Shown here piece after piece: positions 7,828 through 37,675 of a DNA stretch of 64,000 bases; within the stretch, counting starts at the first letter, position 1, and every line of letters starts with the position of its first letter. The translations under genes were made by a program, and so were the position numbers. Under the pieces are notes generated by a model. It saw only the letters and a program-made list of their open reading frames with translations. It was not told the origin of the DNA and ran no database searches. The stretch is from Belliella buryatensis (GTDB lineage: Bacteria; Bacteroidota; Bacteroidia; Cytophagales; Cyclobacteriaceae). Location of the stretch: positions 1-64,000 of the forward strand of contig NZ_FZOK01000007.1 of the NCBI RefSeq assembly GCF_900188245.1. The letters run 5' to 3'.

Positions 7828-8475
7828 TTGAAGTTATTAAATATACATACCCATAGGCCGAATCAAGCCAATGCAATTTTCAACCAAGAGACTGCCACAC
7901 AGCAAACCAAGTATTGCTATAGCCTCGGTCTACATCCTTGGTACTTGGATACAAACTGGGAATCTCTTTTGCAAGAAATGAAAACGAAAAGTGATGACCC
8001 AAACCTCTTTGCCATTGGAGAATGTGGGTTTGATTTGCTCAAAGGACCAAAGGAAGCCATCCAAATCGCAGCTTTTGAAGCACAGCTGCACTGGGCCAAA
8101 GAACTGGGAATTCCTATCATCATGCACCAAGTGAAAGGACTGCATGTATTACAACAATCCCTCAAGCACTTCAAAGATCCTCCTGCCATAGTTTGGCATG
8201 GCTTTATGGGTAAATCTAGTAGCTTTCAAAGTCTAATGAACTTTCCGATTTACTTTTCCTTTGGTGCAGCCATTTGCAAAGACCATAAACTGACAATTGC
8301 TACACTTGAAGCGTTACCACTTGAGCGTATATTTTTTGAAACTGATGATTCAGATTTTACCATTGAGCAGGTTTTTTCAAAAGCTTCTTTAATTTTGCGC
8401 CTTCCTGTTGAGAAATTGGCTAGACAGGTGATAGAAAATTGGAATCATATATCAAAAAGAAAAATACATGAATGA
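7828..8475 (+). CDS. TatD-family metal-dependent hydrolase
   Basis: Cytoplasmic TIM-barrel hydrolase of the TatD family, whose known members act as DNases on phosphodiester bonds. Metal ligands are visible: HTH at the N-terminus, the Glu of GECGFD, a His in IIMHQ, the His of WHGFMG, and the Asp of FETDDSDF. No ATG exists upstream. I chose the TTG at 7828 (reads MKLLNIHTH) because it places the metal motif at the usual distance; a TTG at 7804 is the alternative. At about 215 aa it is shorter than E. coli TatD. It overlaps the tcdA gene by eight bases. Confidence 0.85.
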   Translation: MKLLNIHTHRPNQANAIFNQETATQQTKYCYSLGLHPWYLDTNWESLLQEMKTKSDDPNLFAIGECGFDLLKGPKEAIQIAAFEAQLHWAKELGIPIIMHQVKGLHVLQQSLKHFKDPPAIVWHGFMGKSSSFQSLMNFPIYFSFGAAICKDHKLTIATLEALPLERIFFETDDSDFTIEQVFSKASLILRLPVEKLARQVIENWNHISKRKIHE

Positions 8476-9193
8476 TTTGGCTTGGCTTTCTAGAACGGAA
8501 TTGATTGTAGGCAGAGCGGGATTGGAGAAATTGGCAAAAAAACACGTGCTGGTGGTCGGTCTCGGGGGAGTAGGGTCCTTTGCGGCGGAGTTTATCTGTA
8601 GAAGTGGTGTTGGTGAGATGACCATCATCGATGGTGATGCCGTGGATGTCTCCAACTGCAACAGACAACTACCAGCCACACAAAAAAATGTGGGACAACT
8701 CAAAGCTGACTGGATGGAGGAGCGACTGACAGCAATTAACCCAGCTTTGAAAATTCACGTGATCCGCGAATTTCTCAAGCCTGATGCCATGTATAATCTC
8801 CTTCAGGAAAACGAATACGACTATGTAGTCGACTGCATCGACAGCTTTAGTCCAAAGCTTCATTTGATAGAAAGTGCTTACAAGAGAGGTTTTCCATTGG
8901 TAAGCTCCATGGGAGCGGGAGGAAAAGTGGACCCTACACAAATTAGAATCGCTGATATTTCCGAGACTTACAATTGTAAATTAGCTAAGCATGTCAGAAA
9001 ACGAATTAAGAACAAAGGAATAGCTTCGGGCTTCAAGGCAGTATTTTCTACTGAGCTTTATTTAAAAGACAGTTTGATGATGACGGATGGTCGTAATTTT
9101 AAGAAATCAGCCTATGGAACCATGTCCTTTTTACCTGCAGCATTTGGTTGCTCTTGTGCTTCAGTAGTAGTCAATGATTTATTAGCTGGTTGA
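8468..9193 (+). CDS. tcdA: tRNA threonylcarbamoyladenosine dehydratase
   Basis: E1-like (ThiF/HesA superfamily) enzyme that cyclises t6A37 of tRNA to ct6A in an ATP-dependent step. The nucleotide-binding glycine motif is GLGGVGS near residue 32, followed by the acidic DGDAVDVSNCNRQ segment that binds ATP-Mg, and DCIDSFSPKL downstream. The length of 241 aa fits the family. The gene overlaps the TatD-like hydrolase by eight bases, so the two are probably co-transcribed. The call over other ThiF relatives rests on overall pattern (the IDxxxPK-like segment and length). Confidence 0.9.
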   Translation: MNDLAWLSRTELIVGRAGLEKLAKKHVLVVGLGGVGSFAAEFICRSGVGEMTIIDGDAVDVSNCNRQLPATQKNVGQLKADWMEERLTAINPALKIHVIREFLKPDAMYNLLQENEYDYVVDCIDSFSPKLHLIESAYKRGFPLVSSMGAGGKVDPTQIRIADISETYNCKLAKHVRKRIKNKGIASGFKAVFSTELYLKDSLMMTDGRNFKKSAYGTMSFLPAAFGCSCASVVVNDLLAG

Positions 9194-9395
9194 TGGTTTA
9201 AGTGACAGATTACAAGCTTTTTAGGGGTTGTTAGAAGTTCTATTTTAATCCTTTTTTATTGACAAAATCTTTTCGTTTGATCCTCTTTTTTTGCCATTTA
9301 ACCTGCTTTTTATCCACTCAAAATTAATTCAATATTTGAGTTAAACTATTTGGTAACTCGCGCTGTCTAAGAGTGGATTTAAATAACCAAAACGA

Positions 9396-20921: not shown

Positions 20922-20952
20922 TTTGCGGTTTGTTTAATCATTTATATATTTG
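20922..20952 (+). promoter_or_regulatory. Bacteroidota-type promoter of the sigma-crtI-crtB operon
   Basis: TTTG at 20922-20925, a 19-base spacer, then TATATTTG at 20945-20952. This matches the primary-sigma promoter of Bacteroidota (-33 TTTG, -7 TAnnTTTG). Transcription should start near 20956, about 18 bases before the ATG at 20974. Regulatory binding sites for the adjacent MerR protein would be expected around here, but I cannot point to a clear palindrome. Confidence 0.68.
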
Positions 20953-20973
20953 ATTCAACAAAAACAAAAAGCC

Positions 20974-21486
20974 ATGACAACTCTAGAATTCAGTTACTCA
21001 CTAAACAAGCTCTCTAGTTCTTTAAAGCCATTTGCTTTGAAATTGACCAGAGACATGGATGATGCAAATGACTTGATGCAAGACACAATGGTTAAAGCCT
21101 TCACCAATAGAGATAAATTTACTGAGGGTACTAACTTGAAAGCTTGGTTGTATACGATTATGAAAAACACCTTCATTACCAATTATCAAAGAATGGTAAG
21201 AAGAGGTACTTTTGTTGATACTACTGATAACTTACACTACATCAATTCAGGAGATGTTCTTGTGGAAAATGGAGCATACGGAGATTTCGCAATGGATGAC
21301 ATCTACGAAGCCATTGAAAATCTAGATGATGTCTACAAGACTCCTTTCATGATGCATTATAGGGGTTTTAAATACCACGAAATAGCTGAAAAGCTTGAGA
21401 TTCCAATCGGGACAGTAAAAAATAGAATACATATTGCCAGAAAGATTTTAAAAGACGATCTTCACGTGTACAGACACAAAAATTAA
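20974..21486 (+). CDS. ECF-type RNA polymerase sigma factor
   Basis: Small sigma-70 family factor of about 170 aa with only regions 2 and 4. Region 2 is seen as ALKLTRDMDDANDLMQDTMVKAF and TNLKAWLYTIMKNTF; region 4 as YHEIAEKLEIPIGTVKNRIHIARKIL. ATG 20974 is chosen because the upstream TTG at 20950 falls inside the promoter -7 box. No anti-sigma gene is adjacent. It ends four bases before crtI, so it is the first gene of the carotenoid operon and could amplify or redirect its expression. Confidence 0.93.
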   Translation: MTTLEFSYSLNKLSSSLKPFALKLTRDMDDANDLMQDTMVKAFTNRDKFTEGTNLKAWLYTIMKNTFITNYQRMVRRGTFVDTTDNLHYINSGDVLVENGAYGDFAMDDIYEAIENLDDVYKTPFMMHYRGFKYHEIAEKLEIPIGTVKNRIHIARKILKDDLHVYRHKN

Positions 21487-21490
21487 GCAT

Positions 21491-22972
21491 ATGTCAATAA
21501 AAAATGTAGTGGTCATAGGGTCTGGTTTTGCTGGACTCTCCGCCGCCACACACCTTGCGAATCAAGGTTACAATGTATCAATTCTTGAAAAAAACAGTAC
21601 CCCCGGTGGTCGAGCCAGAAAGTTCGAAGCCGAGGGTTTTGTTTTTGATATGGGGCCAAGCTGGTACTGGATGCCAGATGTCTTTGAGACTTATTTTGGA
21701 TACTTTGGCAAAAAACCTTCAGATTATTATGATCTGATTAGATTGGATCCTTCATATTCGGTCATATTTGGAGACAATGATTTCATGGACATCCCTGCAA
21801 ACCTCGGGGAATTCAGAGGGCTGCTAGAGACAATCGAACCAGGTGTTGGTCCTAAGCTAGATGAGTTTTTGAAGCAGGCTGCTTATAAGTATGAAGTGGG
21901 GATCAAGGATTTGGTCTATAGACCCAGCCGCTCAATTTTTGAGTTTAGTAGTCCTGGACTTCTACTAGATATGATTAGAATGGATATTTTTCAATCCATG
22001 TCTAAGCATGTCCGCAAGTTTTTCAAAGAAGACAAAATTATACGCTTGATGGAATTCCCAGTTCTATTTTTAGGAGAGACAGCTCAAAATATTCCCGCGC
22101 TGTACTCTTTGATGAACTATGCAGATATCGCTTTAGGCACTTGGTATCCGGATGGTGGTATGCACAAGATCATAGAAGGCATGGTGAAGTTGGCTGAGGA
22201 AAAAGGCGTGAAATTCTTTTATGATGCCGAGGTTACTTCCATTGACATTCAAAATGGAATTGCAAAAGCTGTACTCACCAAAGATGGAAGAAAGTTTGAT
22301 GCAGATGTAGTTGTTGCTGGAGCAGATTACAACCATATCGATCAAAAAGTATTGGAGCCAGCATTTAGAAATTATGATGAAAAATACTGGGATAAGCGTG
22401 TGATGGCTCCAGGAAGCTTACTTTTCTATCTGGGAGTAGACAAGAAGCTAGAGAATCTACGACATCATAACCTATTTTTTGATGAACCACTTGGACCTCA
22501 TGCTGACGCCATCTACACTAACCCAAGATGGCCTGAAAAACCTTTATTTTATGCATCAGTTCCCTCTAAGACTGACACAACAGTAGCACCAGAAGGAATG
22601 GAAAATCTTTTCCTATTGGTACCTTTAGCACCAGATTTAGAAGATACTGAAGAGATGAGGGAGAAGTATTACGATATCATCATGGAGCGCTTAGAGCGCT
22701 TGACAGGACAAGAAGTGAGGAGTCATGTGATCTATAAGCGCTCTTATGCGCACAAAGATTTCAAGACTGATTATCACGCATTCAAAGGAAATGCGTATGG
22801 TCTTGCAAATACCTTACTCCAAACTGCTATATTGAAGCCTTCATTGAAAAACAAAAAGGTGAAGAACCTATATTACACGGGTCAATTGACTGTGCCCGGG
22901 CCGGGTGTTCCACCTTCCTTGATCTCAGGTCATGTAGTGGCTAAAGAGGTGATGAAAGAAAACAATTTGTAA
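21491..22972 (+). CDS. crtI: Phytoene desaturase
   Basis: FAD-dependent CrtI-type desaturase of 493 aa that converts phytoene to lycopene by four desaturations at the membrane. The N-terminal dinucleotide motif is GSGFAGLSAATHLA with the downstream PGGRARKFE and FDMGPSWYW; the C-terminal signature is YYTGQLTVPGPGVPPSLISG. Length is normal. It begins four bases after the ECF sigma gene and is followed by crtB after 19 bases. The choice of CrtI over the related CrtD rests on position next to crtB and the overall pattern. Confidence 0.94.
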   Translation: MSIKNVVVIGSGFAGLSAATHLANQGYNVSILEKNSTPGGRARKFEAEGFVFDMGPSWYWMPDVFETYFGYFGKKPSDYYDLIRLDPSYSVIFGDNDFMDIPANLGEFRGLLETIEPGVGPKLDEFLKQAAYKYEVGIKDLVYRPSRSIFEFSSPGLLLDMIRMDIFQSMSKHVRKFFKEDKIIRLMEFPVLFLGETAQNIPALYSLMNYADIALGTWYPDGGMHKIIEGMVKLAEEKGVKFFYDAEVTSIDIQNGIAKAVLTKDGRKFDADVVVAGADYNHIDQKVLEPAFRNYDEKYWDKRVMAPGSLLFYLGVDKKLENLRHHNLFFDEPLGPHADAIYTNPRWPEKPLFYASVPSKTDTTVAPEGMENLFLLVPLAPDLEDTEEMREKYYDIIMERLERLTGQEVRSHVIYKRSYAHKDFKTDYHAFKGNAYGLANTLLQTAILKPSLKNKKVKNLYYTGQLTVPGPGVPPSLISGHVVAKEVMKENNL

Positions 22973-22991
22973 ATAAAGTTGTATATTATCC

Positions 22992-23837
22992 ATGATGGAT
23001 GCAAAAGCTCTCTTTGACCAAACCACCTTTGAATGTAGCCGATTGATTACACAAAGGTACAGCACTAGCTTTACTTTGGGTATCAAAACACTCCATAAAC
23101 AATATCATATGCCCATATATGCTATTTATGGTTTTGTTAGATATGCAGATGAGATTGTTGACACGTTTCATGATCAAGATAAAAAATCTTTGCTGGAACT
23201 ATTTAAACAGGACACTTACAAAGCAATTGAAGAAAAAATTAGCCTTAATCCAGTTTTACATGCTTTTCAAATCATTGTCAATCAGTATAACATTGACAAA
23301 GATTTGATAGAAGCTTTTTTGCATAGCATGGAAATGGACTTAGATTTTAAGACCTACAACGATTCTAAATATCACGAATACATCTACGGTTCTGCTGAGG
23401 TTGTAGGGTTGATGTGCCTAAAAGTTTTCTGCGAAGGTAATGAGACAGAGTATCAAAGGTTAAAAGATCCTGCTTGTAAATTGGGAGCTGCATTTCAAAA
23501 AGTAAACTTTCTCAGAGATATCAAAAGCGATTATGAGGAACGTGGGAGGGTTTATTTTCCAGGGGTTGATTTCATGACTTTTGATAAGACTGCCAAAGAA
23601 ATGATTGAGGAGGATATTCAAAAAGATTTTGATGAGGCTTTGGTAGGGATTAATCAATTGCCAATGGGAGCAAAAATGGGTGTAAAAGTGGCTTATTTAT
23701 ATTACCAGAAGCTCTTCGATAAAATCAAATCTTTGCCCCCCGAAACTATCACCCAAGAAAGAATTAGGATTCCCAATGCAAGAAAACTGTCATTGCTCCT
23801 TGGAACGTACTTCGGTATGAAGCTAGGGTGGGCTTAA
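22992..23837 (+). CDS. crtB: Phytoene synthase
   Basis: Head-to-head prenyl synthase of 281 aa that condenses two geranylgeranyl diphosphates to phytoene. The two Asp-rich sites are visible: YADEIVD near residue 50 and LRDIKSDYEERGRVYFP near residue 177. The protein lacks a membrane anchor, as usual. Third gene of the operon; 72 bases separate it from ispH, with no obvious terminator between. Confidence 0.94.
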   Translation: MMDAKALFDQTTFECSRLITQRYSTSFTLGIKTLHKQYHMPIYAIYGFVRYADEIVDTFHDQDKKSLLELFKQDTYKAIEEKISLNPVLHAFQIIVNQYNIDKDLIEAFLHSMEMDLDFKTYNDSKYHEYIYGSAEVVGLMCLKVFCEGNETEYQRLKDPACKLGAAFQKVNFLRDIKSDYEERGRVYFPGVDFMTFDKTAKEMIEEDIQKDFDEALVGINQLPMGAKMGVKVAYLYYQKLFDKIKSLPPETITQERIRIPNARKLSLLLGTYFGMKLGWA

Positions 23838-23909
23838 ATGTCATATTTTCTTCCATATATAGTGATTTAAGATATCGAAACATTTGAACAAGCTTTAAGT
23901 TAATAGCCT

Positions 23910-24755
23910 ATGATGAATCTTCAAGTACATATAGATCAACACTCAGGATTTTGTTTTGGGGTGGTCTATGCCATAGAGATGGCAGAAGAAATCCTCGATG
24001 AGCAGGGTTATTTATATTGCCTTGGAGATATTGTTCACAATGATGAAGAGGTAAATAGACTTACTGCTAAAGGTCTCAAAATCATCAACCACGATGAATT
24101 ACAAAACTTGGTCAATGAAAAAGTACTGATCAGAGCACATGGTGAGCCACCTTCGACATACGAGCTTTCTATCAAGAATAATTTAACGCTTATTGATGCA
24201 AGTTGCCCTGTAGTATTGAAACTTCAGAACAGAATCAAGAACTCCTTTGATAAAGAAGAAACAATCTACATCTATGGAAAGCATGGACACGCTGAAGTAG
24301 TAGGACTTTTGGGACAGACCAACAACAAAGCAGTGGTCTTCCAAGACATTTCTGAATTAGACATCTCATCCCTTCCTAAAAACCTGACTTTGTACAGCCA
24401 GACCACAAAAAGTACAGACAAGTTTTATGAAATCAATGAAATCCTGAAATCAAACGGAATCACAGTCAATACCAATGATACGATCTGTAGACAAGTTTCT
24501 AATAGGGATAAGGAATTAAGGGCATTTGCTGAAAAGTTCGATAAAATTGTCTTTGTAAGCGGTACCAAATCATCCAATGGGAAGGTCCTCTACAATGTGT
24601 GCAAAGAAAAAAATCCAAACACATACTTTGTGTCCAATCAAGATCAAGTGTGTCCAACTTGGTTTTCTACCAATGACACGGTGGGTATCTGTGGCGCCAC
24701 TTCTACACCTATGTGGTTAATGGAACAAGTAAAAGCAAAATTGGATACTTTCTAA
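23910..24755 (+). CDS. ispH: 4-hydroxy-3-methylbut-2-enyl diphosphate reductase
   Basis: [4Fe-4S] enzyme of the last MEP-pathway step, making isopentenyl and dimethylallyl diphosphate. The three cluster cysteines are C15 (SGFCFGV), C99 (ASCP) and C193 (DTICRQV), with the conserved GKHGHAE and GTKSSNGKVL segments; 281 aa is typical. Its place between crtB and crtW couples precursor supply to pigment synthesis. Two ATGs are adjacent at the start (23910 and 23913). Confidence 0.95.
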   Translation: MMNLQVHIDQHSGFCFGVVYAIEMAEEILDEQGYLYCLGDIVHNDEEVNRLTAKGLKIINHDELQNLVNEKVLIRAHGEPPSTYELSIKNNLTLIDASCPVVLKLQNRIKNSFDKEETIYIYGKHGHAEVVGLLGQTNNKAVVFQDISELDISSLPKNLTLYSQTTKSTDKFYEINEILKSNGITVNTNDTICRQVSNRDKELRAFAEKFDKIVFVSGTKSSNGKVLYNVCKEKNPNTYFVSNQDQVCPTWFSTNDTVGICGATSTPMWLMEQVKAKLDTF

Positions 24756-24779
24756 TCAAGATTCTGCTTACCTTTATTT

Positions 24780-25508
24780 GTGTCAAAAATTATCAACCAT
24801 ACTTCTGAAATCGATCCTAAGGGAATTATCATAGCTGCTACAATAATCATTTTGTGGGCTATTTCTCTTGTTATTTTGCTATCTATTGAATTGAACTGGG
24901 CAAACCCACTCGTCTATTTAGGTATTTTGATTCAGGCCCATTTATACACTGGCCTTTTCATCACAGCCCATGATGCTATGCATGGTTTGGTTTCAAAAAA
25001 CAAGAAGGTCAATCATGCATTTGGCTGGTTTAGTGCCATATTATTTTCATACAACTTTTACTGGAAGCTATTTCCAAAGCACCACGAACATCATCGATAC
25101 GTTGCTACCGACAAAGACCCTGATTATCATGCTTCTGGCAATTTCTTTATTTGGTATTTGAGTTTTATAAGGCAATATGTTACGATTTGGCAAATTTTGC
25201 TTATGGCTGTGACGTTCAATATTTTCAAGCTCTTTCTACCTACTGAAAATCTAATTGTATTTTGGATGCTTCCGGCAATTTTAGCCACCCTTCAGCTATT
25301 TTATTTTGGAACTTACAGACCACACATGGGTGACTCTGACAATGAGCATCATTCAAATACGCAAGAAAAAAACCATGTATGGGCATTTTTAACTTGTTAT
25401 TTTTTCGGTTATCATTTTGAACATCATGATTCTCCTGGTACACCATGGTGGAGATTATGGCAAGTCAAAGAGGAGAATCTGAATTTAGATAACAAAAAAG
25501 AATTATAA
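24780..25508 (+). CDS. crtW: Beta-carotene 4-ketolase
   Basis: Membrane di-iron ketolase of 242 aa that introduces a 4-keto group on beta-ionone rings. Histidine clusters HDAMHG, PKHHEHHR, DNEHHS and YHFEHHD and the closing PWWRL segment identify CrtW. It starts with GTG at 24780; no ATG occurs until the HDAMHG motif, so the GTG start is needed. The gene follows ispH after 24 bases and closes the operon. Together with CrtZ it would make 3-hydroxy-4-keto rings as in flexixanthin or astaxanthin. Confidence 0.93.
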   Translation: MSKIINHTSEIDPKGIIIAATIIILWAISLVILLSIELNWANPLVYLGILIQAHLYTGLFITAHDAMHGLVSKNKKVNHAFGWFSAILFSYNFYWKLFPKHHEHHRYVATDKDPDYHASGNFFIWYLSFIRQYVTIWQILLMAVTFNIFKLFLPTENLIVFWMLPAILATLQLFYFGTYRPHMGDSDNEHHSNTQEKNHVWAFLTCYFFGYHFEHHDSPGTPWWRLWQVKEENLNLDNKKEL

Positions 25509-25559
25509 ATCCATATCTTCAACTCAGTCCGAATATATCTTATATATGATTTAATGGGA

Positions 25560-28500
25560 TCAATATTTCTTTAATACTTTGAATGATTCTAAAGAGTTTA
25601 AATAGACAATATTGACAATATAGAGTCCTGTTGCAGTGTTTTCCATATCAATCTCAACTTTCCTTTCAGAAATGGTGGCAATGTCTTTAACAAGCAAACC
25701 TTTTGAATCTATGATTTGAATGTATTTAACTTTTGTAAATGAATCATCATTAAACTCAATGTTAACTTTGTTTTCTATTAGAGTGGGAAATACTTTAATC
25801 TTAGATATGGGTTTTTCTGGGTTGATATTTGTTATAATATCCAGACTGCTAACTTCCGCTTCAATTGAAATATTATTTAATCTTACATTTCCTGAGTTAG
25901 ATGTAGTATTGCCATCGAAATCAATCCTAATTTGAAACTCATCATTGTCCTCTAAATTTTCTATCCCCTCAAAAGGGATAAAGATTAATTTATAATCATT
26001 AGATAGTTTGAATTCATGTTTTGTTAACCCTTCAATTGTCCATTCACTATCAAATGAAGTTCTATATGAGATCAGGATTTTTTCAGGTCCATTATTAGTT
26101 CTAGAAGCTGCCATTGCGATGGATGGGTTTTTATATCCTCCTAATGGAGAATCTAATATCAGGTAACCAGTTCGATTATCAACTAGCAATGGATTTCTAA
26201 TTCGAATGCCTCTCATATCTTGAAAGTCATAACCTAACCCGTCTGTAATCTCTGATTTAAAATTTATAACAGTAGGGTCGTTCACTCTATCCATTATTCC
26301 TAAAGTATTTTCAAAAGGATAAGGTGAAATTGCAGGGAAAAACTCTAAATTAAACGTCTTATCTTTTAAGGAATAAGTAACTGGAACAATTTTCAAAGGA
26401 GTATCATTCTCAATTTCATTATTAAAAAACCAATAGTGAAGTGTTGATTTATCATCTTGAAGAAGCTTTGAGAACACCGCTTTTACATTTGTGTTTTGTT
26501 CTAAGTGAACTTCTAAATTATCTTGGTATAAAGTTTGATCATTGATAATCCAATAATCAAACTTGAACCCTGGCAATGGAGTTGCTTTAAGGGTAATTGG
26601 TGTACTAGAGCTATAAATACCTTCAAATGGAAATATTTTGTTCCCTGGCCTATGAAGGTTTTCATCTAATCTTAAAGTATTTAATTCAACTTCACCCATC
26701 TCAACATCTGAAACATCCAATAGCAGTTTAATATCTGAGCCAAGCTTTAGTCCTGACCTTAGGAATCCTCTTTGAAGATTAGGTCTTGCTGTTGCATAAC
26801 TTTTCAATTGATTCAAGGAGCTTCCATTAGAATTAATATTCTCTCGTGAACTTGGGTAATATCCCCAGCGGTCAAAATGATTTTCTAATTCAGGTTGGAT
26901 TTTTGAAAAATGTGACTCTGCTATGCTATGAATCCTTTCGGGGTTAAAAGAGGTGTTTATCAAATCATAGAATCTATTGACGAATAAATTCTTAAAAGAG
27001 TCATTTTTCAATAAAGACCTTAGGAAAAGAGTTTTTTCTGGATCGTTAGTGGCAAATTGATTTCCCTTTCCCTCTGGATCAATCCAATTCACAAAAGTAT
27101 CGAAACCAGCACCAAACCTTAAACTAGCATCAAAATCCCATACTATTAACCTAAACTTCCCATCTTCAAACGGGTTTGTAGAAATGTTTTTTGATTTCCA
27201 AAAGCGATAATGCTTATAACCATACCAATCTACATTATTGAAATAAACAAAGGCTATGACATAATCGATGTAACTCAATAAATCCAATTTGGAAGAAACA
27301 TTTTCATAAACTTCATCCGAAGTAATATCTTCCTTGGTCACTAAGTTGTAAAGTGCTCTGTACTCATCTATGTCTCTGGGCTCTCCATATTCAACAAATC
27401 GGCTGCCACTTTGACCCCATGGAGCATTTATCATGATTACTTGATCTGGATCAACTCCATAATAACTGGCTAAATAATTATTATCAATACGATCTCTAAT
27501 ATTAGCGATCCCCCAATATTCTCCATTGAAGTACTTTACTGCAGGTCTACTATTTTGAGTTCCGATATGCATTTCCTTCATTACATGATGAATTACATCA
27601 TCTGTGAGATAATCCATTAAGTCACCACCGTTTCTTAATAGAAGTCGCCTATATCCATTGATTTCTTCTCCTAACTTATTTTTGTTATTTGGGAAAATTG
27701 GATAATTGATTGTATTTGAGTTGTCATAATCTCTTCTTGCGTAAACACGAATTCCTTTATTGGGAGCTCTTCTTGCGCCTCCTCCATGTATTCTAACCCC
27801 TAAGTTTTGATTAAAAACTGATTTCTTATCTTCAAAAAATTCAAGATTGATAGGTCTTTCGAATAACTCTCCAGATTGTTGATAATTTCCTTTATTGACA
27901 TAGCTAGTTTCTGTTCCCCCGTTTTCAAAAAATCTTCTGCCTGGGACAAAAATACCCTCTTCATAACTTAGGAAGTCATAATTGTCTCCAGTTATAGATA
28001 TTACGGGCAAAAGATGGTTAATAGACGATAGTCCTTCTACAAAATATGTTTTTGTAATTGTTGGGCTATATTCTCCATTATAATATACTCTAGCTTTTAA
28101 GATATGAGCCTTGTTAATTTTTTTTGTGGGTTTTTTCCAATTAATGCCAAATTGGTTAAAATATGTTGTAATAACATTTGAGATGTCATTATCCTGACTC
28201 GACTTTTCATCGAACACTAGATTGTTTTCTAGTTGAAATGTTCTGTTATGCCTTTCAGTTAAATAATTGGGCTTATTCTCATTTCGAAAAAAGTAATTAA
28301 AATTATACGCTTTGGGATCAGAAATGTTTTCGTGAATTGGCTCTGACCCATCTAATGTGTATATTATTGAACCATTGGAATTTGGGTTTTCTAAGACCAC
28401 ATTTATAGTTCCATTGTACCAACCTGATTCTAGGTCTATTATTGGTGGATTTAATAAAGAAGAAATATTTCCTTCGGTATTTGAAAATCCTGGAGTTGAT

Positions 28501-28973
28501 TTCGAAAATATAACAATTTCTTCTAATCCATCTTCAATCCTACCATAAGAGAAGTCCCTAGGAATTTCTAATGCAGGAATTTCATCAATCAATAAGCCAT
28601 TTGCATCTGATAAGAAAATTTCTTCACCAGAAGATGAAATACTGAAATTAGTGTGGATTTCTCCATTTTTGACAAAATCCTTCCCAGAAGCCCAGATAAG
28701 TAAAAACCCATTAGCTTCTATTGTTGCCGACGGTATTCTCCATTTAGTAAGGTTATTCCTACTATCGGATAAATAATATCCTTCTAAATTTATTGAAGAA
28801 GAGGCACCGTTATATAATTCAATCCAATCACTAAATTCCTCGTCAATATCTTTAATAGTAGTGCTATTTGATGACATGACTTCGTTTATCTTGATGTTTT
28901 GACCATATCCGTCAGGTACTATTGTTAAGAAAATCAAGAGACTTAGAAATAATAATTGTATATATTTTTTCAT
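25560..28973 (-). CDS. Secreted CotH-kinase protein with lamin-tail domain and T9SS type A sorting signal
   Basis: Secreted protein of 1137 aa. Signal peptide about 1-24 (ends GYGQ); lamin-tail domain about 26-150 (INEVMSSNSTTI, DWIELYN, GYYLSDS); chitobiase-type Ig domain (IIYTLDGSEP); CotH kinase domain about 340-700 with GVRIHGGGAR, the RLLLRNGGD segment and the acidic IVWDFDASLRFG near 610 that should bind metal; beta-rich domains; and a type A sorting tail (about 1055-1137, SKIKVFPTLI then ATGLYIVNI). CotH proteins are atypical kinases that phosphorylate proteins. It is the last gene of the HlyD-VTC-DUF4956-CotH unit, nine bases after DUF4956. Confidence 0.9.
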   Translation of the reverse strand: MKKYIQLLFLSLLIFLTIVPDGYGQNIKINEVMSSNSTTIKDIDEEFSDWIELYNGASSSINLEGYYLSDSRNNLTKWRIPSATIEANGFLLIWASGKDFVKNGEIHTNFSISSSGEEIFLSDANGLLIDEIPALEIPRDFSYGRIEDGLEEIVIFSKSTPGFSNTEGNISSLLNPPIIDLESGWYNGTINVVLENPNSNGSIIYTLDGSEPIHENISDPKAYNFNYFFRNENKPNYLTERHNRTFQLENNLVFDEKSSQDNDISNVITTYFNQFGINWKKPTKKINKAHILKARVYYNGEYSPTITKTYFVEGLSSINHLLPVISITGDNYDFLSYEEGIFVPGRRFFENGGTETSYVNKGNYQQSGELFERPINLEFFEDKKSVFNQNLGVRIHGGGARRAPNKGIRVYARRDYDNSNTINYPIFPNNKNKLGEEINGYRRLLLRNGGDLMDYLTDDVIHHVMKEMHIGTQNSRPAVKYFNGEYWGIANIRDRIDNNYLASYYGVDPDQVIMINAPWGQSGSRFVEYGEPRDIDEYRALYNLVTKEDITSDEVYENVSSKLDLLSYIDYVIAFVYFNNVDWYGYKHYRFWKSKNISTNPFEDGKFRLIVWDFDASLRFGAGFDTFVNWIDPEGKGNQFATNDPEKTLFLRSLLKNDSFKNLFVNRFYDLINTSFNPERIHSIAESHFSKIQPELENHFDRWGYYPSSRENINSNGSSLNQLKSYATARPNLQRGFLRSGLKLGSDIKLLLDVSDVEMGEVELNTLRLDENLHRPGNKIFPFEGIYSSSTPITLKATPLPGFKFDYWIINDQTLYQDNLEVHLEQNTNVKAVFSKLLQDDKSTLHYWFFNNEIENDTPLKIVPVTYSLKDKTFNLEFFPAISPYPFENTLGIMDRVNDPTVINFKSEITDGLGYDFQDMRGIRIRNPLLVDNRTGYLILDSPLGGYKNPSIAMAASRTNNGPEKILISYRTSFDSEWTIEGLTKHEFKLSNDYKLIFIPFEGIENLEDNDEFQIRIDFDGNTTSNSGNVRLNNISIEAEVSSLDIITNINPEKPISKIKVFPTLIENKVNIEFNDDSFTKVKYIQIIDSKGLLVKDIATISERKVEIDMENTATGLYIVNIVYLNSLESFKVLKKY

Positions 28974-28982
28974 AGCTTTAAT

Positions 28983-29657
28983 TTATATCTCATCAAAAAA
29001 CAAATTCACATTATTTACTCCAGGCATTGTTTTCAAATCCTTAACGAAAGTTGAGCCCAGCTTTTCATTTTTAAGCTTAATGTAATAAGAAAATTCAAGT
29101 TGAGTACCATACTCTTCTTCTTCACCTTTAATATTAATTAATTTTGATTTATAACAATATTTATTTAAAGTAGCTTGGAAAGGGTTTTCATTTATACCTT
29201 TTTCAGAACAATAAATCTGCAATAAAAACTCCTTCTGAGGTGGATTACTTGCATTAAGTTTACTTGTTATGAAAATTGCAAGACCAATTAATACTGTGCT
29301 AGAAAAAGTTACTGCATATAATCCAACTCCCGCAGAAAGGCCAATTCCGAGAGCGAAAAAGATAAACATGATGTCTTGGCTATCTTTTACAGCAGTTCTA
29401 AACCTTATGATGGACATCGCCCCAACAAGTCCAAATGCACGAGCTAAATTATTACCAATAACCATAATTACTAATGCAGTAATCATAGTGAGCATAATAA
29501 TTGCGTTAGAAAATGTAGTGGAGTAACTTACTCCTCTGTAGGTAACTCTATAAAGTATTGCTATAAAAATCCCTGATATAAATGACACAAAAATATTTGT
29601 AATTGCTTCTCTTACCGTTAGAGAAAAGGAAAATATTTCTTGTAAGTTTTGTTCCAT
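28983..29657 (-). CDS. DUF4956 integral membrane protein
   Basis: Inner membrane protein of 224 aa with four hydrophobic segments in its first 135 residues and a soluble C-terminal domain of about 90 residues. The segment ARAFGLVGAMSIIRFRTAVKD near the middle is the DUF4956 hallmark. The family is commonly found beside VTC and CotH genes, as here. Spacing is 19 bases after VTC and 9 before CotH. The function is unknown; a channel or transporter role linked to polymer handling is only a guess. Confidence 0.9.
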   Translation of the reverse strand: MEQNLQEIFSFSLTVREAITNIFVSFISGIFIAILYRVTYRGVSYSTTFSNAIIMLTMITALVIMVIGNNLARAFGLVGAMSIIRFRTAVKDSQDIMFIFFALGIGLSAGVGLYAVTFSSTVLIGLAIFITSKLNASNPPQKEFLLQIYCSEKGINENPFQATLNKYCYKSKLINIKGEEEEYGTQLEFSYYIKLKNEKLGSTFVKDLKTMPGVNNVNLFFDEI

Positions 29658-29676
29658 TTTGTTAGATGCTGAAAGG

Positions 29677-30390
29677 TTAAATTGAGCTTTCTATTCCTAA
29701 TGCATATTTTGAAAGAGCCTCGTTTCTTAATCCAAACTCTTGTACAATCGCTCTAGCCCAGCTTGGCATTTCATTTTCAAAGTATTTTATTTCTAAAATA
29801 AAGCTTCCTCGCCATATACGTCTAAGTCCAACAACTCTAAACAAATTTCCAATCTTAGGTGATGGGTAATGTTTAATATTTTTATCAAATGTGATTCTTA
29901 CACCTGAGTCAAATTTTCCATGATATGCTTCTCTTTGATAAACAATTAATGTCTTAGGCTTTAAGTTAAATTTTTCAACGTTAAATAAAAATCTTGTGGC
30001 ATTTTCAATATTGATGTAATCAGTTTCTGAAAATACATCTGAAATTATCCCATTTTTAAGTAATTCTTTTGCTTTTGAAAAATCAAGAAAAGCCCTGTTT
30101 TTAGTAACTCTATCCTCGACTTTCCTTTTAATTTCTAATACAACTTTTGAATTATTATCTCCATATCCTCTAAGTCTAAACTTTTTTCTATCTCGCAATC
30201 CTTCGATTTTTTCAAAATATGAGTTTGTTTGGTAAGAATCAAAGTAAATACTTCTAACTATGTATTCTGGATATCCTCCAATATTTGAAGTATATGCATC
30301 AGGGATTAAAAAAGGCTCAAATCTAGCTCTTAGAGCATTTAGTTGACTCACAGGAACTAGATACTTTTTCTCATGCCTGTATTTTATCAT
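29677..30390 (-). CDS. VTC-domain (polyphosphate polymerase-type) protein
   Basis: Soluble tunnel-fold triphosphate protein of 237 aa with a VTC domain. Basic and acidic tunnel residues appear in order: RHEKKYLV, RSIYFD, KFRLRGY, VLEIKRK, YQREAYHG, RITFD, ILEIKYF and LSKYALG. Yeast Vtc4 makes polyphosphate from ATP with this fold; bacterial members are usually annotated as polyphosphate polymerase domain proteins. The catalytic pattern looks intact. It overlaps the HlyD-like gene by four bases and precedes DUF4956. Confidence 0.9.
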   Translation of the reverse strand: MIKYRHEKKYLVPVSQLNALRARFEPFLIPDAYTSNIGGYPEYIVRSIYFDSYQTNSYFEKIEGLRDRKKFRLRGYGDNNSKVVLEIKRKVEDRVTKNRAFLDFSKAKELLKNGIISDVFSETDYINIENATRFLFNVEKFNLKPKTLIVYQREAYHGKFDSGVRITFDKNIKHYPSPKIGNLFRVVGLRRIWRGSFILEIKYFENEMPSWARAIVQEFGLRNEALSKYALGIESSI

Positions 30391-31472
30391 CTTGAAATTG
30401 TTTTATATAGTAGCCTTTGCAGATATTCTAGAATTGAAATTTTTTCAGTTGAAATTTTCACTTCAGAAATTTCTCCTACATGATTGATTTCATTGGTGTT
30501 AAAAATAGCTGTAATGAAAAAAACTTGTTTTTGATTTATTCTATGGATGACGTTATCAATCTTTAATATTTCTGCATCCAGATTTTTACCTATTGATCTC
30601 AAATAGATATTTACAGGATTGTAGAAAGAAAGGTACTTTTTATCAAAAATATCTATTGGTACCAATGAAACCATTTGATCTTTTTCGTAAACAATAATTT
30701 TCATCATATCGGGAATATCGAAAGAGTTTTGGATCAAGTAACCATCAAATGGAGCTAATACTATAAAATTAGCTAATCTTTCTTGAATTTTTTTTATTTG
30801 ATTTTCAGATTGAATTATTTTAGAAGCTATTAATTTTTCTTGCTCAGGTTTGTCACCTGTGATTGCTGATCTATATTCTGCATCTCTGATCAAAACCTCT
30901 ATCTCCTTCAATCTCAATGAATTTTCTAAAACCTCAATTTCCTGCTTTGTAATCACAGAATCTTTAAATAATCTTAAACTCCTTTCAAATAGTAATTTCT
31001 CTGTATCTAGATCAATTTTTGCCAATCTTAATTTTTCTTGAGAAATATCTCGATCTTCTGGTTTCTGACCAGTGGTAAAAAATATCAATTCTGCTTTTAA
31101 TACTTCAAGATTATCTTCTAATTCTTTTAATCTACGTTGCTCTTCATTTGAATTGACAAATCCAATTGTATCTCCAAAGGATACCTTATTATTGTCTATA
31201 AATTTTGAAGATAGTGTAAACTGAACAACATCACCTCGTGAAAACTCTGTGACGTTGAATGATGTGTTCAATCCCTTAATATTATCTTTAAAGGTTGTAA
31301 TGAAATTCCCGTCAGTTGTTCTTGAGAGAGTCCACTCTTTAGCCGGAATAATCAAGCCTTTAGAATAAATTGTATATTCAATTGTAAAAAATTTCAGTAG
31401 TTGGAATGTAGCAACTATTATTATTGATAGGAGGATAATCTTAATTCCTAAATTTTTGTATTTGTAGTACAA
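30387..31472 (-). CDS. HlyD-like membrane fusion protein (orphan adaptor)
   Basis: Periplasmic adaptor-like protein of 361 aa. One N-terminal membrane segment (about 10-30), a split lipoyl-like region (second half VLAPFDGYLIQNSF near 240), a long helical hairpin between (about 110-235, rich in Glu/Lys/Leu), and a beta-barrel-like end. This matches the HlyD/MFP family, yet no ABC exporter, RND pump or TolC gene is adjacent. The only start upstream of the membrane segment is TTG at 31472. First gene of the VTC-DUF4956-CotH unit. Confidence 0.78.
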   Translation of the reverse strand: MYYKYKNLGIKIILLSIIIVATFQLLKFFTIEYTIYSKGLIIPAKEWTLSRTTDGNFITTFKDNIKGLNTSFNVTEFSRGDVVQFTLSSKFIDNNKVSFGDTIGFVNSNEEQRRLKELEDNLEVLKAELIFFTTGQKPEDRDISQEKLRLAKIDLDTEKLLFERSLRLFKDSVITKQEIEVLENSLRLKEIEVLIRDAEYRSAITGDKPEQEKLIASKIIQSENQIKKIQERLANFIVLAPFDGYLIQNSFDIPDMMKIIVYEKDQMVSLVPIDIFDKKYLSFYNPVNIYLRSIGKNLDAEILKIDNVIHRINQKQVFFITAIFNTNEINHVGEISEVKISTEKISILEYLQRLLYKTISR

Positions 31473-31720
31473 GACAGACAGATTTGTTTAATCTGTAAAT
31501 ATATAGCTTAGTTATTTCAAAAAAAATGCAAATAAGTTTCAAAGAAGGTATTTAGAAGGAAAAGAGGAAAATAGTTAAAAATTATTTTATGTTGTTTTAC
31601 TTATTCTTGCATATTAAAATGAGGTAATAGTTATCAAAATATGAATGACTGAACAAGAAAATGAAATCTTTTAAAACCTTTTGCTTTAAAAATAGATTAG
31701 ATTTCTGTTAATCTCAGCCT

Positions 31721-34128: not shown

Positions 34129-34159
34129 CTTGTATGAATAAGTTGAAGCCGTAACTTTG
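34129..34159 (+). promoter_or_regulatory. Promoter of the BamA-like gene
   Basis: CTTG at 34129-34132, 19-base spacer, TAACTTTG at 34152-34159. The -7 box ends six bases before ATG 34166 and covers an alternative TTG start at 34157, so it also decides the start. The predicted transcript is leaderless or nearly so. Confidence 0.55.
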
Positions 34160-34165
34160 CTGCCA

Positions 34166-35308
34166 ATGAAATACCTATCAGCAGCTTTTTTATGGCTTTT
34201 TTGTTGTCCTCTATTTGCTCAAGAGATTGATTCTTTGGATACCAATAAGCAAAAGTCAGGGATTATTGAAAAACTTTTTGATTTTGCAGACAATACTGTA
34301 GACCTTATCTCGGGAGAAAAATGGTCCTTCATTCCAGCCGTGGTTTATTCCCCTGAGACAAGCCTAGGCTTGGGCGCTAGGGCTATTAGAATATTTAGAT
34401 ATAAAGGTGACGTAGATCCATTCCTTCGACCATCTTCATTGCCAATTACTTTTTTGTATACACTGAACAACCAAGCCATTTTCACCACAGAATTGGAGCT
34501 TTGGTCCAATCAAAATAGAGAATATGTAAACGCGCGCTTAGAATTGACCGATTTCCCATTCAAATTTTATGGGATTGGGAATAATTTAGATGCCTCGAAT
34601 GAAGAATTTTACTCTACACGATATATTTATTTCCACATTAATTATGAGCGTCAATTTTTAAAGGGGCTCTATTTGGGGCCAAGATATGAATTTAGAGCAG
34701 ATGACATTTATAAAAAAGAAGAGGGTGGTATTCTCGACAATAACCTTGTAGCAGGAGCCAATGGGCAAAGATTATCAGGATTGGGATTGGTGCTAAATTA
34801 CGACACAAGAGACAATATATTTCAACCAAAAATGGGTTGGAATAATAGTCTTTCTTGGATGAGTTTTCGGTCTGTGTTTGGCAGCAATTTTACTTTTGAC
34901 CAATATGTTATAGATATTAGAAAATACATTAATACCTATAAGAATCAAGTTTTGGCAATACAAAGTTATTTAAGTTTCACTACAGGACACCCTCCATTTC
35001 AGCACATTTCTCTGATTGGAGGGAGTGATTTGATGCGTGGGTATTTTGAAGGAAGATATAGGGATAATCACGCAATCGTTCAGCAGTTAGAGTATAGACT
35101 TCCTGTTTATCGCAATTTTGGATTAGTGTTTTTTGGAAGTGCTGGTCAGGTAGCGGATCGCTTCAGCAATTTTGGCTTAAATAGAACCCGATATGGCGCT
35201 GGCTTTGGTTTTCGCTACCGACTCAATCCTGATGGGCTAAATATCAGAATTGACATTGCTTTTGGTGATCAAAGAGCCTTTTATTTTGGATTGAATGAAG
35301 TGCTTTAA
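34166..35308 (+). CDS. BamA/TamA-family outer membrane barrel protein
   Basis: Outer membrane protein of about 380 aa with a signal peptide (MKYLSAAFLW to FAQ). There are no POTRA repeats; the protein is essentially a 16-strand-type surface-antigen (D15) barrel with recognisable pieces: SPETSLGLGARAI, GIGNNL, YDTRDN, GGSDLMRGYFEGRYRD (the conserved RGY-type lid-lock segment) and RYGAGFGFRYRL. ATG 34166 is preferred because the upstream TTG lies inside a promoter box. The absence of POTRA domains suggests a substrate-specific role or lipase-like partner rather than core BAM function. Confidence 0.85.
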   Translation: MKYLSAAFLWLFCCPLFAQEIDSLDTNKQKSGIIEKLFDFADNTVDLISGEKWSFIPAVVYSPETSLGLGARAIRIFRYKGDVDPFLRPSSLPITFLYTLNNQAIFTTELELWSNQNREYVNARLELTDFPFKFYGIGNNLDASNEEFYSTRYIYFHINYERQFLKGLYLGPRYEFRADDIYKKEEGGILDNNLVAGANGQRLSGLGLVLNYDTRDNIFQPKMGWNNSLSWMSFRSVFGSNFTFDQYVIDIRKYINTYKNQVLAIQSYLSFTTGHPPFQHISLIGGSDLMRGYFEGRYRDNHAIVQQLEYRLPVYRNFGLVFFGSAGQVADRFSNFGLNRTRYGAGFGFRYRLNPDGLNIRIDIAFGDQRAFYFGLNEVL

Positions 35309-35315
35309 ACTTTTA

Positions 35316-37010
35316 TTATTTTAAAATATACGAAATTCCGAATCTTGCCATAAAATGCTGCCTATCATCTCCTGGGACAAAGTATTGATTAGGATCATTT
35401 TCAAGGAACCACTTGTAATTCCAAGTATTGACATACTGGACACTTCCAGAAAGTAGGATGTTTCCTATTTTCCAATCTGAGAACAATCCAGGAACTAGAT
35501 CAATGTACTTTCTTCTCCAATCTCTAACTTCCTCGAACATGTAATAATAAAAATCATTGTTATAGACAATCCTTTCAAACTGAAAGCCTATCCTATTGAA
35601 ATTTTTCACCCAAGCTACTTCCATCCAGTTGACATTAGCAGCTGGCCCATAGCCCATGCCTAATACTTGACCTTCATGGGTATACCCATGTCTCACATGA
35701 TCATGGATATACCAAGTATCAAGGTTCCGAATGCTTTCCCTAATTGTCTGGCCAGTTTGGGTCATTTCTGCGCTAAGTTGGATGTATTGTTGAGGCTTCT
35801 TCAGGGTAAATAGATTACTGAACCCAAAAGTAAAACCTCTATTGCGCTCGGGGGTAATGATAAAATCATTGAATCTTCTAGAATTGCCATTGGTTCCATA
35901 TTCCCCATAGAACTCAAAATGCCCCTCCTGACTTACCCAGCGGAAGAACCCTGAACTGAACTGCTGTCTTTGTTCTCTTTTGGGATTGAATACATTGGCA
36001 TTTGCCTTTTCCCCATTGAAAATTGGCAGATAATCACTGAACCGATCCATATCTACTCTGTACATATGGTTGGTTGAAGCATACCCGATAGAAAGACCAG
36101 GAACCCATTTTGGTTGATAGGTCAATATCATACCCGAAAGGTATCGATCACCATTTTCTCTTTTGGGTACAAATGCATGTGTCTGTTGTAAGCGGTGATC
36201 TTGGTGAGGTAGGGGAAAATCAGAGCCATTTAAATGACCTGCTATGATTTGTCCTTCAAAATGGCCTAATGGGGTTTCTACTGGATTGCGGGTGTTAAAT
36301 GTCAAGTGAGTAAATCCTGGCGCATTATTACTCAAGAGAAGAGAAGACCTCCTAGCAGGTCCCCACCAAAGATTCTCGGTAGATATTCCAATAGAAAAAT
36401 CACCTGGATTAAATCGGAAACTTGATTGACCAGGAAGAAATCTCCTATATGGTCTGTCTCCCATTCTTTCGGGTAAATCGATCCTATTGAGGTGTTCATA
36501 ATAAAAAAACAAAACTCGACCATAATCCCTTGGCATGCCTACGAACTCTTGGTTTTGGGCAACAATTAGCTCTGGTTGAACCTGAATACTAAACTTACCA
36601 TAACTAGCAAAAAAACCCATCCTATACAATGACTGCCAGCCTTTATTTGGTATCATCGCACCATCATTGATACCAAAGCTCAATTCAGAATTGTACTGAC
36701 TCTGAATCGAGAATGGCATCAAAAGAAAAGTGCCTTGATTCTTTTTACCAAATTTTCTATTTACCACCGATGTGTCATAGTCTTGAAAAGTACTGTCCAA
36801 GTCGATACCTGAATAGCGATCGAAAGCATCTAATGGATATAGAGGACGAATTGAAAAAGAATTATTTCCGGAAATCTCTCCAATCAATTGTTTTCTTCTC
36901 AAATACTCATCAAAGCCTGGGGTATTTAGCGGAAGTGTCTGTGTAAAGGCAAAAGTTCCGAAGCCCTGCAAAGCCAATATACTAAATAGTGTTTTAATAA
37001 ATCTTCTCAT
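35316..37010 (-). CDS. Wzi-like capsule assembly protein
   Basis: Outer membrane beta-barrel of about 564 aa in the capsule assembly Wzi family. A signal peptide (ends TFAFTQ) is followed by alternating strands; typical segments are WWGPARRSSLLLSNNAPGF and FRFNPGDFSIGIS. Wzi binds capsular polysaccharide at the cell surface. ATG 37010 lies two bases after the stop of the upstream lipoprotein gene; a TTG at 37016 would overlap it. The convergent partner at its 3' end is the BamA-like gene, eight bases away. Confidence 0.88.
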   Translation of the reverse strand: MRRFIKTLFSILALQGFGTFAFTQTLPLNTPGFDEYLRRKQLIGEISGNNSFSIRPLYPLDAFDRYSGIDLDSTFQDYDTSVVNRKFGKKNQGTFLLMPFSIQSQYNSELSFGINDGAMIPNKGWQSLYRMGFFASYGKFSIQVQPELIVAQNQEFVGMPRDYGRVLFFYYEHLNRIDLPERMGDRPYRRFLPGQSSFRFNPGDFSIGISTENLWWGPARRSSLLLSNNAPGFTHLTFNTRNPVETPLGHFEGQIIAGHLNGSDFPLPHQDHRLQQTHAFVPKRENGDRYLSGMILTYQPKWVPGLSIGYASTNHMYRVDMDRFSDYLPIFNGEKANANVFNPKREQRQQFSSGFFRWVSQEGHFEFYGEYGTNGNSRRFNDFIITPERNRGFTFGFSNLFTLKKPQQYIQLSAEMTQTGQTIRESIRNLDTWYIHDHVRHGYTHEGQVLGMGYGPAANVNWMEVAWVKNFNRIGFQFERIVYNNDFYYYMFEEVRDWRRKYIDLVPGLFSDWKIGNILLSGSVQYVNTWNYKWFLENDPNQYFVPGDDRQHFMARFGISYILK

Positions 37011-37012
37011 GA

Positions 37013-37675
37013 TCAACTAACTTCCATTGCACTAATTTCAATTTTTGATATTGACCAACTTTCATCACATAAAGGATTGCGTGCATTCAATTGTAACAAT
37101 TCGTCCCCCATGGTAAGCTTTACATCTTTGCCAACATGTGGGATAATTTTTGTGACTCGATATTTTGTTGTACCGGAATTATTAGGCCCTGTATTACATC
37201 TTCCTACAGGATATATTCGGACTGAACCTGTTTTTGGTAGATTTTGTCTAAAATATTCTTGTGGAAATGATTGTCTCAAACAAAAGCTATTGACACATGG
37301 TGTATTAGAAAAAGTTGTTCTATAAACCTCTTTATCATCAATCTTAAAATACCAAAAGTCTGGTCCTGAAACACCATCATCCACATTACCATCCCAGCTA
37401 TCATGCGCTAATACATCTATGGTTACTCTAAGTGCATTATGTGGTGGAAGATCTAGAACTCGTACTTTTAGTTCTTCATTATGATAAAACCCAGCTACAG
37501 TATCACCTTGAAACACAAACAGCCTTGCATTGGTAAAGTTCCTAAGATCTAGGGTGTTGAAATTATTTGAATAAATAAGTGTCTCGCTTAAAAGCTCATC
37601 GACACAGGAACTTGAAGTAACTGTCAAAAAAATGAAAGTAATCAAAATATTAAATAGTCTCCTGACTTCTAGCAT
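37013..37675 (-). CDS. Lipoprotein of unknown function, coupled to the Wzi-like gene
   Basis: Exported lipoprotein of 220 aa; lipobox TSSSC with Cys24 as lipidation site. The mature part looks like a beta-sandwich binding domain: it starts with LIYSNNFNTLDLRNF and ends DESWSISKIEIS, a layout often seen in carbohydrate-binding-like modules. Four further cysteines (CVNSFC, GRCN, NPLC) may form disulphides. I cannot assign a family. It ends two bases before the Wzi-like gene, which suggests a shared surface polysaccharide function. Confidence 0.7.
   Translation of the reverse strand: MLEVRRLFNILITFIFLTVTSSSCVDELLSETLIYSNNFNTLDLRNFTNARLFVFQGDTVAGFYHNEELKVRVLDLPPHNALRVTIDVLAHDSWDGNVDDGVSGPDFWYFKIDDKEVYRTTFSNTPCVNSFCLRQSFPQEYFRQNLPKTGSVRIYPVGRCNTGPNNSGTTKYRVTKIIPHVGKDVKLTMGDELLQLNARNPLCDESWSISKIEISAMEVS

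Follow-up and report, generated by a model that had tools for sequence, protein, structure and literature searches.

An HlyD-like adaptor, a VTC-domain protein and DUF4956 as a conserved gene core in Belliella buryatensis and relatives: a possible route for phosphate-polymer export

Introduction

What is the function of a periplasmic adaptor that has no pump beside it but shares an operon with a putative polyphosphate polymerase and a secreted kinase-like protein? The question is raised by four genes in a stretch of 64,000 nucleotides from Belliella buryatensis (contig NZ_FZOK01000007.1, positions 1 to 64,000), called the window here and numbered from its first letter. They encode an HlyD-like adaptor, a VTC-domain protein, a DUF4956 membrane protein and a protein with a CotH kinase-like domain. 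We tentatively read them as a unit for phosphate-polymer synthesis coupled to export across the envelope, with CotH as one of several surface partners, and assign a probability of about 0.42 to this reading. An initial annotation had proposed a membrane complex that makes or moves polyphosphate or another phosphate compound and supports extracellular phosphorylation; a conserved core of adaptor, synthase and membrane protein was indeed found in relatives, but CotH was not a fixed member of it.

Gene content and conservation of the unit

All four genes lie on the minus strand, and an open reading frame check of the window confirmed their coordinates and order as well as the tight packing ascribed to them, with an overlap of 4 bp between the HlyD and VTC genes followed by spacings of 19 bp and 9 bp. 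The features are:

30387..31472, minus strand: HlyD/MacA-type periplasmic adaptor, first gene of the unit (361 amino acids (aa), TTG start, one N-terminal membrane helix)
29677..30390, minus strand: VTC-domain (triphosphate tunnel) protein, putative polyphosphate polymerase (237 aa, Pfam)
28983..29657, minus strand: DUF4956 / MgtC-like inner-membrane protein with five predicted membrane helices and a ferredoxin/ACT-type C-terminal domain (224 aa)
29328..29450, minus strand: conserved core of DUF4956, residues 70-110, including the invariant R85-F86-R87 (alignments)
25560..28973, minus strand: secreted protein of the type IX secretion system (T9SS) type with lamin-tail, CotH kinase-like and sorting domains (1137 aa, Pfam)
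26781..27797, minus strand: CotH kinase-like domain, residues 393-731 (Pfam E 8e-38)
28578..28901, minus strand: lamin-tail domain of the CotH protein, residues 25-132 (Pfam E 5e-16)
25605..25790, minus strand: T9SS C-terminal sorting domain of the CotH protein, residues 1062-1123 (Pfam E 1e-6; weaker in NCBIfam)
25509..31690, no strand: inserted block, approximate extent (empty site in relatives, GC content)

Conservation was followed in two sets of loci. VTC (PF09359) is present in 57 of 395 genomes of the Bacteroidota group, and the Bacteroidota survey comprises the window and 64 further loci (63 of 65 listed places plus one from a VTC protein search; a 54-residue VTC fragment, G080:C160, is not part of it). 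The named scan, brought in by a DUF4956 alignment, takes the 80 best of 537 relatives and so leans towards close relatives of the window; 78 of these 80 loci have VTC. DUF4956 was found on the stretch at 65/65 survey loci and in 57/57 VTC genomes, at a distance of no more than 400 bp from VTC at 61/65 survey and 78/78 named loci. If genes are counted as near when they share the strand of VTC and lie no more than 4 kb away (12 kb for CotH), an HlyD-like gene accompanies VTC at 43 of the 65 survey and 62 of the 78 named loci, which bears out the expectation that it is conserved in relatives. DUF2490, named by Pfam, is near VTC at 15 survey loci and marks another VTC lineage instead of HlyD; seven survey loci have neither, and the two were never found together (0/143 VTC loci in both scans).

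Gene order is equally regular. Of the non-redundant HlyD loci, 98 in number, 84 are arranged as HlyD-VTC-DUF4956, 13 as VTC-DUF4956-HlyD and one as DUF4956-HlyD-VTC; median gaps are 3 and 2 bp, and the HlyD-VTC gap is 60 bp or less in 81/84 (that of L038 is distorted by an over-long VTC frame). Seven named loci judged to repeat contigs of the Bacteroidota survey (L107, L112, L134, L138, L150, L155, L166) were dropped from tree, neighbour sample and gap counts; they stay in the near-VTC tallies and in the count of 62/68 given below. The VTC gene of L176, hidden by the label filter of the named-scan tally, is visible in the distance listing. The arrangement is not chance.

The distribution of the adaptor appears linked to the type of envelope. 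It is encoded at none of seven loci from Chloroflexota and the candidate phyla radiation (CPR) vs 62/68 other readable named loci (Fisher p 9e-7, ignoring kinship); L115, L126 and L142, cut by a contig end, are outside the 68. Chloroflexota and CPR are taken by us to have a single membrane, and the outer-membrane status of the other phyla is likewise assumed. In the VTC tree, one locus from Chloroflexota (L124) is placed among relatives that have HlyD. On this tree (a quick tree of 134 rows with long-branch warnings) the HlyD label changes 9 times vs 32.7 in shuffles, so that the adaptor was gained or lost several times. Single frames are interrupted: the HlyD frame of L069 is split in two (8202-9250), and a TGA lies inside the DUF4956 match of G318 (L091).

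Predicted properties of the core proteins

The VTC protein matches its Pfam family with E 9e-36 (124 bits, family cut-off 23), and the family profile finds yeast Vtc4 with E 8e-20. Counted along the printed profile alignment, K9, R72, R74, K88, K97, R153 and R165 align to Vtc4 K200, R264, R266, K281, K294, R361 and R373; E200 aligns to Vtc4 E426, only in a second segment whose match has no significance of its own. We take K200, K281, R361 and R373 of Vtc4 to be catalytic residues. The tunnel positions and K228 are invariant or nearly so across the 65 survey VTCs, and the window protein keeps the seven named residues together with E200, K202 and K228. R264, R266 and E426 were altered in the mutant Vtc4 of a published complex (PMC9911596). 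No SPX domain was found in the window unit by Pfam. The host genome also has PPK1 (PF02503), so that bulk intracellular polyphosphate would not need VTC; C29:184395-184943 of this genome is an entry for PPK1 and a second CotH-domain match.

DUF4956 was recognised by Pfam with E 3e-14. The MgtC/SapB score of the protein (15.1 bits) is below the cut-off of 31.4, and NCBIfam PRK09977 (MgtC-like) matches with E 2.6e-4. Its model consists of five long helices (15-39, 47-67, 71-89, 93-111 and 114-135) and a ferredoxin-like tail. Among the matches listed for this tail, ribosomal protein S6 and NikR are the best; ACT domains and the tails of MgtC proteins are present too, including, in Foldseek, those of M. 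tuberculosis and P. aeruginosa MgtC. The protein carries the positions invariant in its alignment, and R85-F86-R87 are invariant in 64 sequences. Because of hydrophobicity and charge, this RFR motif would be placed at the cytosolic end of a helix.

The first protein of the unit has no Pfam match, and its NCBIfam adaptor matches are weak (best E 1.6e-6). It carries the positions invariant in its alignment. A profile of 24 family members finds EmrA (E 3e-17) and MacA (E 8e-12); a single-protein HlyD scan of the named genomes gave no match. The AlphaFold model (pLDDT 92.4) is matched by Foldseek to MacA/EmrA adaptors with E 1e-13, and VIA structure comparison gave a best Z of 13.8 with a root-mean-square deviation (rmsd) of 12.2 over 244 residues, a large value that fits a multi-domain protein with bent joints. 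With one N-terminal hydrophobic helix, the predicted structure has the membrane anchor, hairpin and barrel parts of an adaptor fold.

The remark of the initial annotation that this adaptor is without an exporter holds: no ABC, RND or MFS pump gene was found among the flanking genes of the window. DUF4956 occupies the operon place of such a pump, which answers this remark. Three related operons include an outer-membrane efflux protein (OEP/TolC) gene, L103 (HlyD-VTC-DUF4956-OEP, E 6e-39), L207 (HlyD-DUF4956-OEP, E 1e-34) and L043 (DUF4956-HlyD-OEP-VTC, E 4e-17), so that DUF4956 may be the inner-membrane part of a tripartite exporter. The unit of the window has no OEP gene of its own.

DUF4956 without VTC is present in 31/395 genomes, three of these matches being below the family cut-off. 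Eight of 13 such loci, chosen by hand, carry DUF4956 together with an HlyD-like gene; the latter is strong at L207 (266 bits), weak by profile at six loci and recognised by Pfam only at L201. The pair can thus serve a cargo not made by VTC. A second type of DUF4956-adaptor operon is seen in L196-L201 and L208, where DUF4956, an HlyD-like gene and a gene for a protein of about 410 aa follow each other without VTC. No Pfam family was found in three members of the 410-aa protein tested; its TolC-like appearance by eye in L196-L201 was not supported by Pfam (2/6 tested), profile comparison or PDB search. An SDR-like gene (by eye) follows it in L196, L197 and L201. Other arrangements are a short DUF4956 of about 185 aa in L202, L203 and L206, where the adjacent gene runs in the opposite direction and encodes a protein of about 625 aa (the L202 protein, the one tested, has a PPDK_N domain), and DUF4956 followed by 341-aa and 480-aa proteins in L204 and L205, the 480-aa protein of L204 being a purple-acid-phosphatase-like metallophosphoesterase.

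CotH and other secreted partners

Pfam agrees with the description of the last gene as a 1137-aa CotH protein with T9SS tail and lamin-tail domain. The CotH domain scores 131 bits (family cut-off 23.8), and its profile finds B. cereus CotH 5jd9 with E 1e-35; a search with the window protein alone gave no PDB match at E 0.1. The kinase residues, on which the idea of extracellular phosphorylation depends, give a mixed picture: D582 and D613 align with conserved aspartates, i.e. the catalytic pair, but D494 stands where 18/19 aligned relatives have E, and H588 where all 6 closest aligned relatives have N. By pattern, D582 and D613 may correspond to D228 and D251 in the B. subtilis protein, and alterations of these two sites were reported as inactivating (PMC7821199). 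Kinase activity of the window protein is uncertain.

CotH, VTC and DUF4956 had been regarded as frequent neighbours. At the level of genomes the co-occurrence is clear, with CotH in 55/57 VTC genomes vs 80/338 without VTC (a statistic that ignores kinship), but at the locus CotH is optional: the domain was found near the unit at no fewer than 15/43 HlyD loci of the Bacteroidota survey and 15/62 of the named scan, both lower bounds because some contigs are short. With a domain-only profile, CotH domains are on 24/65 survey stretches; a first count of 41/65 was discarded as profile drift on shared secretion domains.

Other genes also adjoin the unit. Among 109 immediate same-strand neighbours (gap below 200 bp, below 1000 aa, CotH-labelled genes set aside; categories can overlap) we found DUF2490 (14), T9SS tails (14), GH5 (8), CBM_6 (6), SdiA-regulated/phytase-like (6), arylsulfotransferase-like (4), Cthe_2159 (3) and OEP (2). 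Given this variety of families, CotH is one secreted partner among several.

Secreted proteins of the arylsulfotransferase-like type are met repeatedly in the vicinity of the unit (11/52 scanned members of one neighbour cluster; L118 singly). In Neomarinimicrobiota (L131, L144, L145, L147, L154) the trio lies among glycoside hydrolases, identified by Pfam as GH5 and GH2 in L145 and GH16 in L131 and by similarity in the other three. Lipoprotein-like neighbours in L101, L103, L111 and L123, the nearest relatives of the window, looked propeller-like by eye; no Pfam family was over cut-off.

An inserted block and its surroundings

The four genes sit in a block of about 6.2 kb with a GC content of 30.8% vs 37.1% and 38.4% in the flanks. 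The same site is empty in 7/7 other genus genomes compared: there, the desaturase-type gene (here 24780-25508; 71-90% protein identity) directly abuts the TonB-receptor-type gene (here from 31721; 85-95%), and the 16 kb around the empty site yielded no match to any of the four genes. A VTC protein search of the other 36 genomes of genus and family and a VTC family search of 8 other family genomes gave no match. Gain in the Belliella buryatensis lineage is the simplest reading, and another bacterium is the probable source of the block. In the tree, the VTC relatives closest to the window protein come from metagenome-assembled genomes labelled Cryomorphaceae, Flavobacteriales, Saprospiraceae and Cytophagaceae, with identities of 50% or less. 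A repeat search over the region found short imperfect pairs only, none naming a mobile element.

By domain search, the genes on one flank encode a TonB-receptor plug protein, Omp85 and Wzi-like proteins, with the Omp85-domain and Wzi-like capsule-assembly genes at 34157-37016. On the other flank, 20950-25508 (left of the insertion), are sigma-factor, amine-oxidase-type, phytoene-synthase-type, LytB and desaturase genes, which in our view together resemble a carotenoid cluster. In the region no Rfam match and no tRNA was found; promoter-like sites numbered 28 vs 32.6 in shuffles and terminator-like sites 1 vs 2.6.

Proposed mechanism and alternatives

In the export model, the conserved core would be HlyD, VTC and DUF4956, presumably associated in a complex that moves its cargo outwards. 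Like yeast Vtc4, the cytosolic VTC protein would use a nucleotide as the source of phosphate for polymerisation. DUF4956, in the inner membrane and with its RFR motif, would receive or gate the anionic product, much as the membrane channel does in yeast VTC, and may sense a ligand through its ACT-type tail. In outer-membrane bacteria the HlyD-like adaptor would carry the path across the periplasm to a TolC-type exit, operon-encoded in few genomes and possibly supplied from elsewhere in others. The product, polyphosphate or another phosphate-rich polymer, would thus reach the cell surface and meet exchangeable partners. In the window this is the CotH protein secreted by the T9SS; at other loci, arylsulfotransferase-like proteins, glycoside hydrolases or beta-propellers would fill the role. 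This proposal is based on the residue match of VTC to Vtc4, the linkage of VTC, DUF4956 and HlyD, the adaptor fold, the OEP operons, the absence of HlyD from presumed single-membrane bacteria and the fact that the four genes sit together in one insertion. A bolder extension, in which exported polyphosphate is the phosphoryl donor for ATP-free surface chemistry, DUF4956 replaces the pump and CotH phosphorylates matrix proteins or glycans, appears quite improbable to us.

Several results weigh against export. Among the papers listed in our literature search, none reports activity of a bacterial VTC protein. Among the matches listed by the fold searches the membrane part of DUF4956 was not placed and the tail alone was matched; model confidence is low (63-68) over residues 71-90, the site of the RFR core. 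The share of OEP genes among immediate neighbours (2/109) is not far above that expected from the genome-wide share, which amounts to a few per thousand. At 8/13 hand-picked loci, a VTC-less DUF4956 has an HlyD-like gene as its direct neighbour. HlyD is not the sole arrangement in outer-membrane bacteria either, since it is absent, at the cut-off used, from 6/68 readable loci outside Chloroflexota and CPR (one of these, L176, has a 54-bit HlyD-like gene after DUF4956) and from 22 loci of the Bacteroidota survey, 15 with DUF2490, all of which are in outer-membrane bacteria. Finally, aggregation and Pel persist upon deletion of the polyphosphate-polymerase gene in S. intermedius (PMC12345266).

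The last result belongs to a body of work that suggests a different function, namely that the unit is an accessory to the assembly of exopolysaccharide or surface carbohydrate, with VTC and DUF4956 tuning or decorating a glycan, CotH phosphorylating matrix proteins or sugars, and polyphosphate export not being the point. CotH, polyphosphate polymerase, DUF4956 and DUF4832 are described as accessory genes of Gram-positive pel operons, the first three being contiguous with pel in streptococci, clostridia and bifidobacteria (PMC7112168). S. intermedius made more Pel when SIR_1592 was deleted, whose product (four membrane segments and ACT) is taken to be the DUF4956 protein, and less Pel when the CotH gene SIR_1594 was deleted; both deletions led to more than 50% less aggregation in one medium (PMC12345266). 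A locus table of C. perfringens places VTC, CotH and a glycosyltransferase close together (PMC2879425). The statement that the unit has no described function therefore holds in part: the CotH/polymerase/DUF4956 set has been described, but beyond the papers cited here our search, mostly outside subscription journals, found nothing on the version with an HlyD adaptor or on polyphosphate export by it. The GH5, CBM_6 and Cthe_2159 neighbours and the Wzi-like gene 4 kb away (35316-37016), though outside the insertion, also fit a carbohydrate function. On the other side, PelG is over cut-off in 5/395 Bacteroidota-group genomes and in none of the 57 VTC genomes (2/57 are weak, below cut-off), a PelG search of the Belliella buryatensis genome found none, no polysaccharide synthase is among 8 flanking genes tested, and the glycoside hydrolases are mostly in Neomarinimicrobiota. 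We consider this explanation somewhat unlikely. DUF4956 and HlyD could also be a small-molecule or ion efflux or signalling pair (MgtC-like phosphate or metal homeostasis), with VTC serving intracellular phosphate balance. The MgtC-like matches of DUF4956 and the DUF4956-HlyD pairs without VTC agree with this, but not the constant and close company of DUF4956 and VTC; moreover, we know of no MgtC protein that works with an adaptor, and we regard such a pair as unlikely. Finally, the block could be a passenger that this genome acquired recently and that may have no function. This could explain its presence in 1/8 same-genus genomes, its low GC content and the changed CotH active-site positions; with four open frames and VTC, DUF4956 and HlyD proteins that keep their alignment-invariant positions, it is very improbable.

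If synthesis coupled to export is the correct reading, several outer-membrane phyla would possess a bacterial pathway devoted to the synthesis and export of a phosphate polymer. DUF4956, so far a family of unknown function, would receive a role, and it could become clearer how secreted kinase-like proteins work outside the cell. According to the authors of PMC12345266, they did not find the synteny of the three genes anywhere but at the Pel locus; in our survey the set is common outside Pel. It is not tied to Pel, which bears on the reading of the streptococcal mutants.

Comparison with known systems

CotH, VTC and DUF4956 are already known as a Pel accessory set; in the window unit they stand apart from Pel and together with an adaptor. 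The window unit has the same three contiguous families as that set but differs from it in the missing PelG, in having an HlyD-like adaptor where the set has DUF4832 or a cyclic-di-GMP enzyme, and in the T9SS tail of CotH. The latter resembles the CotH spore-coat kinase, whose structure 5jd9 is found by the profile, in the aspartates aligning with the catalytic pair; unlike it, the window protein has the T9SS tail and the lamin-tail domain, and at two conserved positions D and H stand in place of E and N. DUF4956 shares with the MgtC/SapB family membrane helices followed by an ACT-type domain and a weak sequence match, whereas scores below the family cut-offs, a regular VTC neighbour and its own Pfam family set it apart. 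With MacAB-TolC and EmrAB-TolC the unit has the adaptor fold in common, and three related operons include the OEP gene; in contrast to these exporters, no ABC, MFS or RND pump gene stands beside the window adaptor, and DUF4956 has that place in the operon. Yeast VTC, a complex of Vtc1, Vtc3 and Vtc4, couples polyphosphate synthesis to passage via a channel lined with basic residues (PMC9911596). The window unit differs from it in that no SPX domain was found, an HlyD adaptor is added, and the membrane part is an MgtC-like DUF4956 protein, encoded by a separate gene and with no shown relation to Vtc1. Both systems, however, have a homologous catalytic triphosphate tunnel metalloenzyme (TTM) domain with matched residues, and in both the synthase has as its neighbour a membrane protein in which basic residues are conserved.

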